From Chloroflexota bacterium (GTDB lineage Bacteria; Chloroflexota; Dehalococcoidia; JABGRK01), in contig JABGRK010000017.1 in assembly GCA_018648325.1 (NCBI GenBank), forward strand, positions 1 through 64,000: DNA of 64,000 nt, read 5' to 3'. This document shows positions 6,460-14,537 of this stretch, piece after piece. How positions within the stretch are numbered: position 1 is the first letter of the stretch; every line of letters starts with the position of its first letter. The position numbers and the translations under genes are program-made. The notes beneath the pieces were generated by a model. It was not told the origin of the DNA. It was given only the letters and a program-made list of their open reading frames with translations, and did not search any database.

Positions 6460-8868
6460 TTATTCTTTGCTGGTATCCTTATCCATACCAATGGCGGATA
6501 TAAATGACTCCACTATTGCCGGATCCCATTGCGCTCCGGCCAGCGTGCGCAGTTCCGCAACGGCCTCATCTGCGGTCAGGGCTGACCTGTAGGGACGGTC
6601 TGATGTCATGGCATCGAATGTGTCGATTACGGCCAGAATACGGGCGCCCAGCGGTATGTTGTCTCCCTTAAGGCCATGTGGGTAGCCGCTGCCGTTGTAC
6701 CACTCGTGGTGGTGTTCGATTATAGGTAGGGCATCTTCCATAAAATCCAGGAAACGCAGAAGCTCGACTGCCCGTGATGGGTGAAGCTGAACCTCTGTTT
6801 TTTCCTGCGGGTCCAGCGGGCCGTCTTTCTGGAAGATGCGGTCCGGAATGGCGATTTTAGCGATGTCGTGCAGGTTGGCCGCCAGTTCCATGGCGCGCAT
6901 TTCTGCCTCATTAAGACCCAGTTGAGTGCCCATGGCTCTGGCAAACTGGGCCACGCGTTTGGAGTGACCTCCCGTGTACCTGTCTCTGCTTTCCTGAAGA
7001 AGTACCAGCGTTCTTGCCATATTAAGATATGATTCCTCAAGCTGCTTCTTGTTTTCTACAAGATTCTGATAGGCTTTTTCCTGTTCTACTTTGCTTTCTT
7101 CAAGGTGAGCGGCTCGTTTTTCCAGCTCGTGGTAGGCCTTTTCCAGTTCCTTATCGCGGCTTCTTACCTCTCTGAGCAATCGCGAGCTTTGCAGTGTTAT
7201 AGCCGCTTCACTGGCAAGCGTATGTAAAAACAGTAAGTCGTCTGCCGAGAACTGGGCACGTGATATTTTACCATCCAGGCATAGTAGCCCCACCTCTGTT
7301 TTACCAGCACGCAGGGGAATGAAAAATGCGGCATTAGAATCGAGCGGTGCCTGGTTGGGGAACATATCATTCTCTTTGAGGGCAGGGATGGATTTGACGA
7401 GCTTTTTTTGCGTTTCAGTATGCTCGTATCTGCCGGTGGCAAAGATGACCGATAGTCCCGATTCGCTTTTACCCGGCATGAGCAGGCATCCTGCTGACAG
7501 CCCCAGCGTTTGCGTTGTACTTACTATGAGGAATTGCGACAGCTCTTTCATATCTGTAGTTGCCGAAAAACCGAGGCTGATTGCTCTTATTGCCTTTTTG
7601 TAGTCGTATCTGTCTTTGTACAGGGTATGATCTACCCACCCCTGGAGTCGATCTATGATCGGTCTGTAGGATAGCGCGGCTATCACTGCGAAGAAAAAGA
7701 CAACAACAACTGTGAGACTAGTGTTTCCTACGTTGTTCATTATTTCATAGAGACCCCAACCGGTTAAACCGTAGATAATCATCAGACCCGTTGTCATTAG
7801 TCCATATACTATGCTGCGCTTTATTAACAGATCAATGTCCATTAATTGGTACCTGACAATGGTATAACCGATGGAAAGGGGGCTGAAGAGTAGGGTTAAA
7901 CTGGCTATACGAACAGGTACTATTTTTGTGCCGTTAATTGCATTTGGTAGCATGACAAGCAAAAGTATTGGCAGCACGGCTAGTAACATACCTATAAAAA
8001 TTATCTTTGTTTGCTGCCTTACTCGTATAAATGTGGCTGTGATGTAACTGTGCAGCAGCAACCCCAGGCTAAAGAGCAATCCTAGTGCCAGGTTTGCTGC
8101 ATAGGCCACCCCGAACCACGAAGTGGTCTGCCCTGCACTATGTCCACCGGCTAAAAATAGGACAACCATAATTATAAAGGGAACATATAATAGATATTCA
8201 GCGTGTGGCAAACGAGAAAGCCATTTTTTCTTAGAGGGGAATATCCAAAAGAAGTGCGCTACCAGCCATGGCAGAAGTATTATAACGCTTTTTTGGAGTT
8301 CAAATGACAGGAATAAAGCCCTTTCCTGGGCTAGCCCTGCCAAAAATTCCAACCCGGCCACCATACTTACCAGATAGAATACAGTGCTGGCATTATTCAT
8401 CTTTTTCTTAATGAATACGAAAAAGCCTACTGATAGGAAGAGGAGTGATATAATGGAAAGTATGACTGTCTCTTGGATATTGGCTGATGGTATTTTAGAA
8501 TCATGAACCGACAGTTTTATGGTTTCTCCATTACTATCAATTGATAGCTGCTCGACGAGTTGAGATGAAATAACTTTTAGATCTATATACGCTTGAGGAA
8601 AATCTGCAGGTTCCTGTCCATTTACACTGATTACTATATCGCCTTGCTCAATACCTCTGGCATGCGCAAGCCCCGAGTGCTCAAGCGACTGCACAACCCA
8701 TTGTTGATTATCGAGTTTGAGGTTGGCTCCAATGTATGGTCGGGATAAGCTCATTACAGACAAATAGATACAAAGCCCGGTTACTGCAAATCCTATTGCA
8801 AGTAGCAAAACAAACCAAGGCCGTTTGCGCAGTTTATTGGGAGTGGTTTTTGAGTTGACTGTTTGCAT
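6460..8868 (-). CDS. ComP-like membrane receptor (N-terminal TM + PDZ-like + multi-TM, GAF-like, coiled coil) fused to a C-terminal HD-GYP phosphodiesterase domain
   Basis: PDZ-like HARGIEQGDIVISVNGQEPADF after TM1; about 7-8 hydrophobic segments; C-terminal NLHDIAKI...HHHEWYNGSGYPHGLKGDNIPLGARILAVIDTFDAMTSDRPYR (HD-GYP). Confidence 0.88.
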   Translation of the reverse strand: MQTVNSKTTPNKLRKRPWFVLLLAIGFAVTGLCIYLSVMSLSRPYIGANLKLDNQQWVVQSLEHSGLAHARGIEQGDIVISVNGQEPADFPQAYIDLKVISSQLVEQLSIDSNGETIKLSVHDSKIPSANIQETVILSIISLLFLSVGFFVFIKKKMNNASTVFYLVSMVAGLEFLAGLAQERALFLSFELQKSVIILLPWLVAHFFWIFPSKKKWLSRLPHAEYLLYVPFIIMVVLFLAGGHSAGQTTSWFGVAYAANLALGLLFSLGLLLHSYITATFIRVRQQTKIIFIGMLLAVLPILLLVMLPNAINGTKIVPVRIASLTLLFSPLSIGYTIVRYQLMDIDLLIKRSIVYGLMTTGLMIIYGLTGWGLYEIMNNVGNTSLTVVVVFFFAVIAALSYRPIIDRLQGWVDHTLYKDRYDYKKAIRAISLGFSATTDMKELSQFLIVSTTQTLGLSAGCLLMPGKSESGLSVIFATGRYEHTETQKKLVKSIPALKENDMFPNQAPLDSNAAFFIPLRAGKTEVGLLCLDGKISRAQFSADDLLFLHTLASEAAITLQSSRLLREVRSRDKELEKAYHELEKRAAHLEESKVEQEKAYQNLVENKKQLEESYLNMARTLVLLQESRDRYTGGHSKRVAQFARAMGTQLGLNEAEMRAMELAANLHDIAKIAIPDRIFQKDGPLDPQEKTEVQLHPSRAVELLRFLDFMEDALPIIEHHHEWYNGSGYPHGLKGDNIPLGARILAVIDTFDAMTSDRPYRSALTADEAVAELRTLAGAQWDPAIVESFISAIGMDKDTSKE

Positions 8869-8874
8869 ATATAG

Positions 8875-9843
8875 CTAGTCCTGTAAAGATTCTACCAGAC
8901 CAGTCAATGTTTTGGTATCAGATCCGTACTTAGCGGCTTGTTTAAGTGTAGCTAAGGCTTTTTGTCGATACAGTTCCATGGTCACAACAGTATAGTGTAT
9001 CGCACCTGTGTCAAACAAGAGCTTTATAACTTGTTTTTCGGTTTGGGGCGTGACGGCGTCTGAGCCTTTATATATAGAACTCAGCAACTCAAGATCATTG
9101 CCCTCGGCATTTTCCAGTGCGTATATTATAGGGAGCGTTACTTGCTTTGCTATGATGTCGCTTTTACCTGTTTCCGACTTCGTTATTCCATGTATGTCGT
9201 TTACCAATTGAGTTGCCATACCAATATTGTGGCCGAATCGGGCAAATGCATCTATTAGATTTTGATTATCTGTTGAGAGCATGGCTGCAGTGAGGCAGGC
9301 GCATTCCATTGGAGGTGCCGATTTGAGTGCTACCATGTCGAGGTATTGGTCTTCTGTAATATCTGTGTTTGATTTATGTTTGATATCGAGATATTGGCCA
9401 GTGCAGGACATAATTCCATACTTACTTATCTCGGCAATAATCGAAACGATGGAACCGTTGTCTACATTTTTTGTTTTAAGCCTGACCATGGCCAACTGTG
9501 CCAGCAATAGTAGCGCAGTGGCGATATTGACTGCTTGAGCGTAACCGGCGGTTGCTATTAGTGAGCTTTTTGAGTCTTGATCCTCCACATCATCAAAAAC
9601 ATCGGCGGCTGTTTGCATGAAGCATATTGCCGCGGATAATGGAAGGACATGTTCGTATCCATCACAAACGCTTTGGGATATAAGAACAGGTAGTAGTGAT
9701 GATCGATATCCCGACTCAGACAGAGGTCTACCGGGACCCATTAGGGGCTGTTGGATTAATTGCTTAAACGACGAATCCCCCGGTAAACTTGCTATCAGCT
9801 CTTCTATTTCCTGTTTAAGAAGATGTGCTATTTTTTGTAACAT
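8875..9843 (-). CDS. ComQ-like isoprenyl synthase / class I polyprenyl synthetase fold (322 aa)
   Basis: Aspartate-rich ADVFDDVEDQD motif, second motif QLVNDIHG, helical isoprenoid-synthase layout; 12 bp downstream of a short peptide gene. Confidence 0.8.
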   Translation of the reverse strand: MLQKIAHLLKQEIEELIASLPGDSSFKQLIQQPLMGPGRPLSESGYRSSLLPVLISQSVCDGYEHVLPLSAAICFMQTAADVFDDVEDQDSKSSLIATAGYAQAVNIATALLLLAQLAMVRLKTKNVDNGSIVSIIAEISKYGIMSCTGQYLDIKHKSNTDITEDQYLDMVALKSAPPMECACLTAAMLSTDNQNLIDAFARFGHNIGMATQLVNDIHGITKSETGKSDIIAKQVTLPIIYALENAEGNDLELLSSIYKGSDAVTPQTEKQVIKLLFDTGAIHYTVVTMELYRQKALATLKQAAKYGSDTKTLTGLVESLQD

Positions 9844-9855
9844 TCAAAAGATCTA

Positions 9856-10071
9856 TTACCAGCCACCCATAGGTTGTGCTTTGGCCTCAAGCACTGCCGA
9901 GTTGCCATTTACGATGCCCACGCTGGTATGCACGTTGACGATGGCATCTTTCTCTTCGGTAGTGAGATTGAACTTGGCAAGTGTACTGCTCGGATCTTTC
10001 AGTAAATCTTCCTTGAATTTGCCATCGGTAAAGGTTTTTTTAACTAATGACCTAACTGCTTTAAGACTCAT
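9856..10071 (-). CDS. Putative ComX-like / RiPP-type pheromone precursor (71 aa, C-terminal GGW)
   Basis: MSLKAVRSLVKKTFTDGKFKEDLLKDPSSTLAKFNLTTEEKDAIVNVHTSVGIVNGNSAVLEAKAQPMGGW; RBS ggaggga 3 nt before the ATG at 10071; the upstream ATG in the ORF track lacks such an RBS. Confidence 0.7.
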   Translation of the reverse strand: MSLKAVRSLVKKTFTDGKFKEDLLKDPSSTLAKFNLTTEEKDAIVNVHTSVGIVNGNSAVLEAKAQPMGGW

Positions 10072-10141
10072 GATTCCCTCCATTATCGTGTTTATTTTAT
10101 GGATATACTGCAATGTAGTGGCTTACATTAGCAGATATATA

Positions 10142-10306: not shown

Positions 10307-10738
10307 CTAGTTTTTGCCGGCACTGCTGCAGGCTACCATATCCTTTTTGGGCGTGTGTTCCTTTGTGAAGTTTACTCTCCTTATCTTTGCGTTGATGCGC
10401 GCAATCATCTCTCGTATACTGAATGGTTTTTTGAGGTAGTCGTCTGCACCGGCGATTAAAGCCTGTTGAAGCCAGTCTTGATCGTGGGCTGCCGATAACA
10501 TTATTACCGGAACGTGAGACTGCTGCCGGATTGTATTTAATACCTGCATGCCATTGATACCGGGCATCATTATGTCTAACAGGACTAGGTCAGGTTTGGC
10601 TTTCTGGAATGCGGCCAGGGCAATTCTTCCGTGCAGTGCAGTGATTACGCGATACCCGTTATGCTCCAGCGCTCGATTAAGCATGGTAACCATTGTTTTG
10701 TCGTCGTCTATTATCATTATTAGTGGTGAGTTATTCAT
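10307..10738 (-). CDS. Response regulator, receiver domain only (143 aa)
   Basis: IIDDDKTM, DLVLLDIMMPGINGMQVL, ADDYLKKPF; no DNA-binding domain; RBS ggaggc upstream. Confidence 0.9.
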   Translation of the reverse strand: MNNSPLIMIIDDDKTMVTMLNRALEHNGYRVITALHGRIALAAFQKAKPDLVLLDIMMPGINGMQVLNTIRQQSHVPVIMLSAAHDQDWLQQALIAGADDYLKKPFSIREMIARINAKIRRVNFTKEHTPKKDMVACSSAGKN

Positions 10739-10778
10739 TTGAGTAGCCTCCTGACTTTGTGGGTTTGTTGTTAAAAGT

Positions 10779-11285
10779 CTATTGGGTCATGTGTTGAACT
10801 GCTCTGAGCATTTTATGCAGTATGTCTCGACGCTGGGTGTGTTCTGCGATCTCTACTTCACCGTCGTCGCTGTAGTTCTCATTGCTTTGAACTTCCAGCC
10901 TAGTTACTTCGGCGTCTTCTACTACGTATAATCTCATCAGCTTCTCGTGGATAGCATTGGCGTTTTTTGTTTTGTTGTGTGATGTTTGCATTGTTTCCTT
11001 CTTTTCTACGTTTGTAATAGTTAACGTGATAGGTTTTGGATTGGCATTTATGTCCTCAATTCGGTTTGCAATACTCAGTAGCGCCATACCGCCTTGTGTC
11101 GGTTTTAAAGTAGGATGCTCGTTTTCAATAGCGGTACGAGCGAGATCATTACTGAGCAGGTATCTGCGATAATGGCTATACTCCTCAGGAACAATTCCGA
11201 ATTGCTTAAGGGCAGTTATCTCGTTGTCGCACTCCATTTTAAGTACGGTGCTTATTGTTTCCAAGTGACTTCTTGAGCCGTTCAT
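10779..11285 (-). CDS. Hypothetical protein (168 aa)
   Basis: ORF with start overlapping the upstream stop (TAATG) and RBS ggaggc. Confidence 0.6.
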   Translation of the reverse strand: MNGSRSHLETISTVLKMECDNEITALKQFGIVPEEYSHYRRYLLSNDLARTAIENEHPTLKPTQGGMALLSIANRIEDINANPKPITLTITNVEKKETMQTSHNKTKNANAIHEKLMRLYVVEDAEVTRLEVQSNENYSDDGEVEIAEHTQRRDILHKMLRAVQHMTQ

Positions 11286-11523
11286 TATTCGCCTCCTTGT
11301 GGGCTATTGATTTTGTAGTTGATGTTGTAGCTGTTTGTTTGTGAGGCGTCGTTGCTACTGGGGGCTTGATATATATCGGTAAGACTGGTTGCTGTTTCTT
11401 CAGGTGAAACAAACTGTGCAGTAACTCCGGCTCCCACCATAATCACCAGCGCTGCTATCAACAGGAGAAGCAGGCTGCGTAGCGAGCTTTTTTTTGTTCT
11501 GCGATTGCGTTGGTTGTGTTCAT
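11285..11523 (-). CDS. Small single-TM protein requiring a -1 frameshift at an A8 tract (about 78 aa)
   Basis: ATG 11523 with upstream GGGGG opens MNTTNAIAEQKK; after the A8 tract the -1 frame reads SSLRSLLLLLIAALVIMVGAGVTAQFVSPEETATS...NSPQGGE* ending in TAATG coupled to the next gene. Confidence 0.5.
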
Positions 11524-11669
11524 TTCTGATACCCCCATTCGATTACAGTTATTAGATTAGGGGAGCAGGGTCACACCAGCAGCAAAAAAGAACTGAGAAA
11601 AATCACAGAACAATCACAGACAGTTATTTTGGGTGATTCAGGGGCGACAGGAGTGTTTTCAGATAAAAA

Positions 11670-11697
11670 AAACCTTCCGCAAAGCGGAAGGTTTGCA
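11670..11697 (-). terminator. Hairpin terminator between regulatory operons
   Basis: aaaccttccgc-aaa-gcggaaggttt with A/T runs on both sides. Confidence 0.8.
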
Positions 11698-11727
11698 TTT
11701 TTTAAAAAGGTTCTTTTTTAATATCTA

Positions 11728-12429
11728 TCAGCTATTTTTTTTCATGATATAGCCTATGCCGGGCCTGGTCGTGATGTACTTGGGGGTTTTTGTGCTGTCA
11801 CTGAGCTTTTGCCTGAGACGGGCCACGTTTACCTGGAGCAGGTGTGCTTCACCTATGTAGTCTGCACCCCAGACCTTTTCCAGTATCTGATCAGGCGTGA
11901 CCACGCGGCCTGCGTTATGCGCCAGAAAGGCCAGCAGTCTGTATTCTGTTGCTGTCAGGGTTATATCCTGCTTGTCTATGGAAACGGAATGCTGTGTGTA
12001 GTCAATTGTCAGGTCATCGCAGGTAAAGGCTGGCTCGGTTTGGTCCTCCCAGAATTTGGTGCGGCGCAGTACTGCTTTTACTCTGGCCACAAGTTCTTTG
12101 GACGAAAACGGTTTGGTTATGTAATCATCCGCACCGGCATTAAGTCCCTCCACCTTCTCATCCTCGTTGCCTTTTGCAGTCACGATTATAACGGGAACCT
12201 GAGAAAACTCACGGATACGCTGGCATGTCGTAAAACCGTCGATTCCTGACATCATTACGTCAAGCAGTACCAGATCAGGGGTTTCCTCGTCAAAGAATAT
12301 ATCCAGCGCCTCTTCACCGCTGCTGGCTCTTAAGACCTTGTGCCCCTCAATTTCCAGTATGCGCTGCATGAGTCGCAGTAAGCGAACATCGTCATCAACG
12401 GCTAGAACAGATATTTTTCTCGACGGCAT
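11728..12429 (-). CDS. OmpR/PhoB-family response regulator (233 aa)
   Basis: Receiver DLVLLDVMMSGIDG...ADDYITKPFSSKELVARVKAVLRR plus winged HTH (TATEYRLLAFLAHNAGRVVTPDQILEKVWG). Confidence 0.93.
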   Translation of the reverse strand: MPSRKISVLAVDDDVRLLRLMQRILEIEGHKVLRASSGEEALDIFFDEETPDLVLLDVMMSGIDGFTTCQRIREFSQVPVIIVTAKGNEDEKVEGLNAGADDYITKPFSSKELVARVKAVLRRTKFWEDQTEPAFTCDDLTIDYTQHSVSIDKQDITLTATEYRLLAFLAHNAGRVVTPDQILEKVWGADYIGEAHLLQVNVARLRQKLSDSTKTPKYITTRPGIGYIMKKNS

Positions 12430-12439
12430 ATTATCACCT

Positions 12440-12832
12440 TTATTTTATTAGTGCCTGAGCTGCTGCTTCTTTAAGGCTGGCGGCACTGAGCGGTTTTACC
12501 AGATAATCCATGGCACCCATATCCAGTGCTTTTTCGCGCATGGATACACCTGCTGATGCGGTTAGCATAATAACTTTGATATTGGCAAGTTTTTTGTTGG
12601 ATTTGACCTGCCTCAGCACCGACCATCCATCTTGCCCTGGTAGCCTTAGGTCCATGAATATCAGATCGACATGATTGTCTGCTACGATGGTTAGTCCTGT
12701 TTCCCCATCCTCTGCGGCAAGCACGTTGTAACCTTCAATATCGAGCACTCGCGTTGCAAAGTGGCGGATGTTGGCTTCATCTTCAATTATAAGGATTGTC
12801 TTTTTACTGCTTTCTTGCATATTATTTACCAC
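12440..12832 (-). CDS. Stand-alone receiver protein (130 aa)
   Basis: ILIIEDEANIRHF, DLIFMDLRLPGQDGW, AMDYLVKPL. Confidence 0.9.
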   Translation of the reverse strand: MVNNMQESSKKTILIIEDEANIRHFATRVLDIEGYNVLAAEDGETGLTIVADNHVDLIFMDLRLPGQDGWSVLRQVKSNKKLANIKVIMLTASAGVSMREKALDMGAMDYLVKPLSAASLKEAAAQALIK

Positions 12833-14537
12833 TCTCCTTTTTGCCTTTAATTATTGGCAGAGTGAAATAAACTATACTTCCTTCTTTTAGCTTGCTCTGT
12901 ATCCATATTTTACCACCGTGTGCTTCCACCAGTCCTTTACAGATGGATAGTCCAAGTCCTATACCGCTTCTGTCTATACCTTTATGCTTTATGCGGTACA
13001 TTCTATCGAATACCTTGTTCAGTTCATCATCAGGTATGCCAATGCCCTGATCTGAAATGCTTATAAGAATGTTGGAGTTATCTTTCTGAGCCTTTATTTC
13101 GATAACGGTTCCGGCCTCGGAATATTTTATAGAATTATTAATTACGTTGTCTATTACCTGCCGGATGCGTTTTGCGTCTATGTTGAGGTTAGGCAGTTTT
13201 ATTGGCAGCACCGATTTTATTGTATGGTGATTGGCTCTGAGGTTGGCTTCGGTGATTATCTCTTGCATGAGCTTGAGAAGATTATAATCTTCTTTCTCCA
13301 GTTTTAGCAGGCCTGCCTCCATGCGTGACATATCCAGCAGGTGGTCTATGAGTTCTATAAGTCTGTCGGTTGAATCATCTATAGATTGCAGATACTCTTG
13401 TTTCTCATCCGTATCCAGCATCTTGTCATAGTCTATCATCATGGTTGAGTAGCCTTTGATGGTTGCCAGCGGAGTGCGCAACTCGTGTGAGACATTGGAC
13501 AGCAGATCTGTTTTCATGCGGTCTGTTTCGCGCATGGCAATAACTTCCTGCTGATGGTGTATGATTTCCTCCTCTGCTGCCTTATGTTTTTCCTCCAGCT
13601 CTATGTTATGCAGTGCAAAGGCTATGTCTCCCGCGACCTCTCTAAACAGGCTCAAAGCCTCATCATCGGTCACTACGGTTGGAATTGCAGAAACGCATAA
13701 TATGCCATAGATGCTTTTTTTGTATGCCAGTTGAACGCACATGGCATACCTGTTTACCCCTTCTGTTGAGATGGGGCACTGGCTACAAGTTTCGGAGGTG
13801 TTTTTAACTACAACAACCTCTGGGGTTTCCATTGCACGTGTTGCACAATGAGGAAGGTTGCCAAGTTTCATTTGATTGGAAAAAGCGTGGTAGCTTGTGC
13901 CTATGCCCGCCTCGACGCAAAGGGTCGCTTTACGTTTTTTGTCGAGCAGTGATATCCAGGCGCTGTGGTAATCCGGGACTCTTAGCAGCGTGTCACATAC
14001 GTCTTTGAGTAAGCGGTATCTGTCTTTTTGCGTGGTTACAATGCGGTTGATAGTGCGCAATGCATTAAGTACGCGATTTAAGTGCTTTATACGCTCCTCG
14101 GCTCTCTTGCGCTCGCTGAGTTCCTGCTGTACTTCATTAAACAGCCTTTTATTTTCCCTCTTGAGCCGCTGCCGCTCCACTATGTCGCCGACCACAGAGA
14201 GCATTTTATCGATATCCATGGGCTTGGTGATATAGGCCGATGCTCCCTGGTTCAGTGCCTGCATGGCGGTTTCCAGCGAGGCAAATCCTGTGACCATGAC
14301 CGCTGCCATATCAGAATTTATCTCTTTGAGTGAAGCAAGAAGTATTGTTCCGTCCATATCTGGCAACTTGATATCCAGTAGTGCCAGATCAAACGATTGT
14401 TGCTTTGCCTTTTCAATAGCCTCTTTGCCTGTGCTCGCGCTATCGGTATCGTAGCCCTTTTCGTCCAGAATATGGGATAGCGTAGTGCACTGGCTTTCAT
14501 CATCATCGACAATCAGAATTGTTGGTTTTATTTCCAT
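12822..14537 (-). CDS. Hybrid sensor histidine kinase: N-terminal receiver, GAF, HisKA, HATPase (571 aa)
   Basis: DLALLDIKLPDMDG receiver; SNVSHELRTPLATIKGY H-box; NVINNSIKYSEAG, GIGIPDDEL, RSGIGLGLSICKGLVEAHGG. Confidence 0.94.
   Translation of the reverse strand: MEIKPTILIVDDDESQCTTLSHILDEKGYDTDSASTGKEAIEKAKQQSFDLALLDIKLPDMDGTILLASLKEINSDMAAVMVTGFASLETAMQALNQGASAYITKPMDIDKMLSVVGDIVERQRLKRENKRLFNEVQQELSERKRAEERIKHLNRVLNALRTINRIVTTQKDRYRLLKDVCDTLLRVPDYHSAWISLLDKKRKATLCVEAGIGTSYHAFSNQMKLGNLPHCATRAMETPEVVVVKNTSETCSQCPISTEGVNRYAMCVQLAYKKSIYGILCVSAIPTVVTDDEALSLFREVAGDIAFALHNIELEEKHKAAEEEIIHHQQEVIAMRETDRMKTDLLSNVSHELRTPLATIKGYSTMMIDYDKMLDTDEKQEYLQSIDDSTDRLIELIDHLLDMSRMEAGLLKLEKEDYNLLKLMQEIITEANLRANHHTIKSVLPIKLPNLNIDAKRIRQVIDNVINNSIKYSEAGTVIEIKAQKDNSNILISISDQGIGIPDDELNKVFDRMYRIKHKGIDRSGIGLGLSICKGLVEAHGGKIWIQSKLKEGSIVYFTLPIIKGKKESGK

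Follow-up and report, generated by a model that had tools for sequence, protein, structure and literature searches.

What does a 71-residue polypeptide that ends in its only Trp, encoded next to a gene of the isoprenyl synthase type, serve for, and which protein, if any, responds to its product? The polypeptide gene (hereafter designated X) lies at positions 9856–10071 on the minus strand of the window, that is, the whole 64,000-nucleotide stretch of Chloroflexota DNA analyzed here, where it starts with ATG at 10071 and runs for 71 codons to a stop at 9856–9858. The product is MSLKAVRSLVKKTFTDGKFKEDLLKDPSSTLAKFNLTTEEKDAIVNVHTSVGIVNGNSAVLEAKAQPMGGW, in which Trp71 is both the sole Trp and the final residue, just as a sequence-only reading of this DNA had described. 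A strong Shine–Dalgarno sequence (GGAGGG; 10076–10081, minus strand) is located directly 5' of this ATG, and the 71-residue start is therefore favored over the longer alternative in the program's ORF listing, an 85-residue frame beginning with TTG. X is a single-copy gene in its own genome.

The NHLP/Os1348-like leader that the same reading had suggested proved to be measurable. Thus, the top NCBIfam match of X is NF038399 (Os1348 family, NHLP clan) with an E-value of 9.8e-8, its 32 bits being below the curated cut-off of 40 bits, and this model matches 12 of the 17 homologous precursors (E up to 0.01; best E, 5.6e-12). In Pfam, X gave sub-threshold matches only, to LigA, nitrile hydratase alpha, and Frankia_peptide, which we take to represent one general helical type. 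An AlphaFold2 model of X contains helices at residues 3–15, 17–25, 27–31, and 38–56, with low confidence from residue 53 to the end, and its nearest folds in the PDB are those of the RiPP precursor SonA, the LigAB-type enzyme DesB, and Os1348, at E-values of 0.3 and above that are as weak as expected for 71 residues. Based on the model, residues 1 to about 52 with the four helices (9916–10071, minus strand) are read as the leader, and the remainder (about residues 53–71; 9859–9915, minus strand), which is disordered in the model and variable among the homologues except for the Trp, as the core plus a spacer.

The X family consists of 17 distinct precursors, pooled from genomes of relatives and from 85,488 species genomes, in which an alignment of the neighboring enzyme Q (see below) found 15 loci, mostly in Dehalococcoidia. 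The homologues share 24–42% identity with the window X, and only Leu36, Ala43, and Trp71 are invariant columns. The Trp71 codon (9859–9861, minus strand) is the predicted prenylation site. The last Trp is the final residue in the window X, the second from the end in 14 precursors, and the sixth in two, so that all 17 have a Trp within the last six residues; for eight representatives with <50% identity, the probability of such a placement by chance is about 3e-8. The expectation of a conserved leader, a variable core, and an invariant C-terminal Trp was thus borne out, except that the Trp is strictly terminal in the window only. No homologue lacking the Trp near its C-terminus was encountered, nor one in which GGW is incidental to a longer protein, the two outcomes that the sequence-only reading had held to speak against itself.

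A profile of X, mostly matching through leader positions 1–40 only, also retrieved PalX-like precursors, and 27 of the 30 fetched have a Trp as the C-terminal residue or close to it. The extreme C-terminus of formate dehydrogenase alpha is formed by an Os1348/NHLP-like domain in other Dehalococcoidia, and such a domain ends a formate/nitrite transporter at other loci; both tails, which are likely a shared docking tail, terminate in RLSQEKW or similar (loci L006, L013, L048, L050, L051, L053–L056, L058, and L060 for the C-termini, together with L052 and L057; protein identities from sequence reading, not from Pfam). Because Os1348-like, Trp-ending tails occur on these proteins, a leader and a terminal Trp alone are no proof of the function of X.

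Downstream of X, the enzyme gene Q (8875–9843, minus strand) starts 12 nucleotides past the X stop codon, and a third gene, P (6460–8868, minus strand), starts 6 nucleotides past that of Q; with such short gaps, the three genes are presumably co-transcribed as one operon. The X-Q-P unit recurs with its order unchanged in Dehalococcoidia and in one Sphaerobacter metagenome-assembled genome (MAG), and is present in four single-contig genomes of one genus (putatively Dehalogenimonas). Among 396 genomes of the class, strong matches of X and of P were each found in 13, with 12 having both (hypergeometric p = 6e-21, with relatedness ignored). Two genomes depart from this pattern: the contig of G040 breaks off within Q, and G280 possesses P but neither X nor Q. 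In G033, the unit is divided between two contigs, X lying at the end of one and Q-P at the beginning of the other. Recurrence of the unit and co-occurrence of X and P rule out chance neighbors. Moreover, the divergences of X, Q, and P are correlated (rho, 0.83–0.91; Mantel p = 0.0005), as plain joint inheritance would also give. The isolated P of G280 (L117, 3525–5930; E = 1e-115), with neither X nor Q nearby, might be an orphan receptor listening to the signal of other cells. A contig filed as a Clostridiales MAG (L026) barely differs from one of Dehalococcoidales that was obtained from a sister sample (L025), which likely reflects a binning error.

The Q gene encodes a 322-residue protein matching PF00348 (E = 6.2e-29), and an isoprenyl synthase gene therefore does adjoin X, as had been read from the sequence. 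The AlphaFold2 model of Q (pLDDT, 90.6) has the trans-IDS fold, the best E-values in the structure comparison belong to isoprenyl diphosphate synthases, and the matches include the Trp farnesyltransferase Ord1. The fold and these closest structures would also suit an ordinary short-chain isoprenyl diphosphate synthase lying by chance beside an unrelated NHLP-clan protein, an explanation that we regard as highly improbable, since X, Q, and P travel together and the genome already possesses two full-scoring synthases (227 and 210 bits with PF00348, against 102 bits for Q, the third and last such protein). Furthermore, in a tree of 53 sequences, these two ordinary synthases fall outside a clade (100/99) that unites all X-Q-P enzymes with ComQ and Bacillota enzymes and adjoins GGPP-synthase-like proteins. 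The second Asp motif also argues against an ordinary synthase. While the first aspartate-rich motif of Q, DDVED (residues 84–88; 9580–9594, minus strand), has Asp84, Asp85, and Asp88 invariant in 11 homologues, the second motif, QLVND (Gln212, Asn215, and Asp216; 9196–9210, minus strand), is degenerate. All X-Q-P enzymes carry this QxxND form (pseudo-SARM), which lacks the first Asp and also characterizes Lysinibacillus ComQ and that of other Bacillota, in contrast to the QxxDD of 12 of 12 Chloroflexota housekeeping synthases compared; Gln212 is invariant among the Q homologues compared. A 2026 review (PMC13290415) states that trans-IDS-like peptide prenyltransferases recognize tryptophan through the second motif and the preceding Gln.

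PalQ-type enzymes, represented by the family of genome G646 (taken as putative Paenibacillaceae) and recognized by context and a Q-x-x-D-x-x-x-D motif, not by accession, form a separate branch with a length of 5.25 changes per site. Owing to long branches, the internal order of the tree is unsafe; the clade of Q and ComQ is also recovered in the tree without PalQ (100/100), and a Q profile finds ComQ at an E-value of 4e-38. These comparisons support the assignment of Q as a ComQ-type enzyme, not just an isoprenyl synthase. Searches of phages with Q gave weak matches only, and a plasmid search led to ComQ loci of Lysinibacillus, which were used as the reference. One plasmid record labelled Stenotrophomonas rhizophila KC1 (CP065518; L064) contains a comQXPA locus that hardly differs from the one on the Lysinibacillus fusiformis plasmid pMGMM7 and is probably mislabelled or contaminated.

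The product of P, a gene that the sequence-only reading had left out, is an 802-residue membrane protein with the architecture PDZ–multi-TM–GAF–HD-GYP, as judged from Pfam and a sensor profile. Its sensor part (7579–8868, minus strand) comprises a first transmembrane segment at residues 20–38, a PDZ domain at residues 43–89 (Pfam, E = 8.7e-6), and further transmembrane segments to about residue 405, in a hydropathy pattern resembling that of ComP. When four Chloroflexota sensors were combined into a profile, it retrieved Lysinibacillus ComP (E = 2e-31) and, in 399 sampled Bacillota genomes, ComP-like receptors beside Q-like enzymes and response regulators. By sensor homology, P is a ComP-type receptor. 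Across the loci, the sensor part is conserved while the output module varies: by Pfam, it is HD-GYP in the window P, G018, and G033, HD-GYP plus GGDEF in the Sphaerobacter MAG, a histidine kinase in G007, G219, and SURF_40, and a PAS-kinase-receiver module (hybrid kinase) in G228, the outputs at the remaining loci being assigned from sequence reading. A Sericytochromatia MAG encodes a ComP-like sensor fused to a SpoIIE-type phosphatase (L158, 2139–4814) and, cut off at the end of another contig, a Q-like enzyme (L035, 2985–3367).

The HD-GYP domain of the window P (PF13487, E = 7.4e-43; 6514–6993, minus strand) displays the motifs HD(I)AK and HHEWYNGSGYP, and, by the HD and HHExxDGxGYP motifs that mark HD-GYP phosphodiesterases, P is placed among these enzymes, with hydrolysis being predicted. 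In the window genome (93% complete), P is the only HD_5 (HD-GYP) match, one GGDEF protein was detected, and no EAL protein was detected; the predicted output is therefore c-di-GMP turnover, and P, if active, would be the main recognizable c-di-GMP phosphodiesterase of the cell. Signaling by X thus appears, on domain content, to be wired straight to c-di-GMP breakdown. Alternatively, the signal may be real and the HD-GYP domain of P regulatory or degenerate, with the output passing through other proteins such as the response regulators at 10307–14537. The motif HDIAK indeed departs from the usual HDxGK, and response regulators and a hybrid kinase are encoded directly upstream of the unit. Nevertheless, this alternative seems unlikely to us, since the HD, HHE, and GYP residues are retained, G018, G033, and Sphaerobacter share this architecture, the motif being a canonical HDIGK in G018 and Sphaerobacter, and the upstream genes do not accompany X-Q-P elsewhere. 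The latter form a dense run of signaling genes on the minus strand, encoding a lone receiver, a 168-residue protein without family, an OmpR-type regulator, a receiver, and a receiver-GAF-histidine kinase. For the same lack of company elsewhere, the upstream response regulators and a nearby ABC transporter were dropped as parts of the system.

Residing in a three-gene unit with a ComQ-related enzyme and a ComP-related receptor, X very probably gives rise to a lipid-modified signal peptide. In full, the reading that we consider likely is that X-Q-P constitutes a ComQXP-type signaling unit, in which Q would prenylate the C-terminal Trp and the cleaved peptide would be a pheromone read by P. The NHLP-type leader is known mostly from RiPP natural products, which is in favor of a different fate for a peptide likewise prenylated by Q, namely an antimicrobial or membrane-acting RiPP with P as an immunity or self-sensing regulator. 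We consider such a fate improbable, because the constant partner of X and Q is a ComP-homologous sensor and neither immunity nor export genes accompany them in a conserved manner.

In the pheromone reading, the following sequence of events can be proposed. The NHLP-type leader would dock X on Q, in which the intact first Asp motif would ionize an allylic diphosphate and the degenerate QxxND motif would hold the indole; the clade and the motif together suggest that Q prenylates the C-terminal Trp. Cleavage from the leader and export of the modified peptide would then fall to proteins encoded elsewhere, the unit itself including no protease or exporter. Outside the cell, the peptide may be sensed by the PDZ/multi-TM part of P, the part homologous to ComP. 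As an intact-looking HD-GYP phosphodiesterase replaces the histidine kinase in the window P, signal binding should change c-di-GMP directly, while in relatives the same sensor would drive histidine kinases or hybrid kinases.

Related arrangements occur at other loci. In a second Dehalococcoidia group (G348, G180, G011, and G202), the gene of a Q-like enzyme is preceded by a short ORF that differs from X and ends in PWV, QWS, AWF, or QWT, and is accompanied by genes for a ComP-like kinase and a NarL-type regulator; G058 shows a similar arrangement with a short ORF ending in GWI and a more divergent enzyme. The loci of this second ComQXPA-like Chloroflexota group are L119 (4653–8816), L122 (3522–7707), L124 and L125 (minus strand), and L123. 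Their Q-like enzyme has lost an Asp from the first motif, and the NarL-type regulator directly follows the ComP-like kinase in four of the five. In the Bacillota sample, an X that terminates in W or Wx is encoded ahead of Q at eleven loci, and there are loci combining X, Q, and P with a response regulator. By hhalign, these Bacillota precursors match the Chloroflexota X at 87% (E = 4e-6), aligned through the Trp, and a small ComX set at 57% (E = 1e-4), neither score being reached in 200 column shuffles. The former match supports a common ancestry of the Bacillota upstream precursors and the Chloroflexota X. Direct membership of X in the ComX family was rejected: X has no match to the Pfam family, and, in a direct profile comparison, the Chloroflexota X and ComX score no better than shuffled columns do (14 of 200 reach the score). 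A genome search with PF05952 gave no match, as was the case for the control genomes. An indirect relation of X to ComX via the Bacillota precursors is suggestive only, and, because these precursors bridge the two where the direct comparison fails, there is no more than a hint that ComX has an NHLP origin.

Taking these points together, we propose, tentatively and with somewhat less than even confidence, that the receptor of a prenylated-Trp pheromone is itself a c-di-GMP phosphodiesterase, acting in one step without a phosphorelay, and also that ComX may descend from an NHLP-type leader. If true, Trp-prenylated peptide signaling would reach Chloroflexota, in which the 2014 census had none and no later report was found, and the ComX and PalX worlds would be joined by an NHLP-type precursor that is modified by an enzyme of the ComQ clade. 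Since the unit occurs in four complete genomes of the one genus, putatively Dehalogenimonas, it would also provide a candidate cell-to-cell signal for organohalide-respiring bacteria. The natural series of one sensor combined with a phosphodiesterase, kinase, hybrid kinase, or SpoIIE-type phosphatase makes direct peptide control of c-di-GMP testable.

Among the known systems, a ComQ-clade enzyme with an NHLP-type precursor, or such a receptor ending in HD-GYP, was not found described in open-license papers, in which ComQ in Chloroflexi/Chloroflexota gave nothing relevant. The sequence-only reading had taken the pairing of an NHLP-like leader with a ComQ-like enzyme to be new. The general idea of such a leader with a Trp prenyltransferase was already known from PalX/PalQ/PalP of Paenibacillus alvei, consisting of an NHLP precursor, a prenyltransferase that modifies a strictly C-terminal Trp, and a histidine kinase (PMC10853753, 2023); with PalQ on its separate, very long branch, such a leader paired with an enzyme of the ComQ clade still seems to be undescribed in open-license papers. 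The window unit shares with PalXQP an NHLP-type precursor with a C-terminal Trp beside a trans-IDS-like prenyltransferase and a sensor gene, but differs in the receptor output and in the enzyme, PalQ-type enzymes keeping the Asp residues of the second motif; as Q is not on the PalQ branch, membership in PalXQP is ruled out. Os1348/NHLP-clan RiPP precursors resemble X in leader sequence and predicted fold, whereas the usual NHLP maturation enzyme does not adjoin X and the modifying enzyme is of the ComQ type. Ord1 (PDB 9v4g), a free-tryptophan farnesyltransferase, shares with Q the fold (TM-score of about 0.8) and the Gln before the second motif, but acts on free Trp without a precursor peptide and is 16–17% identical. 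With ComQXPA of Bacillus and other Bacillota, which a 2014 census did not find outside Firmicutes (PMC4008528), the window unit has in common the enzyme clade with the QxxND pseudo-SARM, a P sensor homologous to ComP, and a short precursor with a Trp near the C-terminus, X with its 71 residues and Trp71 fitting the size of about 50–75 residues. The unit is distinguished from ComQXPA by the order X-Q-P instead of Q-X-P-A, an NHLP/Os1348-type leader without a ComX Pfam match, the absence of ComA or any regulator gene after P, its occurrence in the phylum Chloroflexota, and a P that ends in HD-GYP, not in a histidine kinase.
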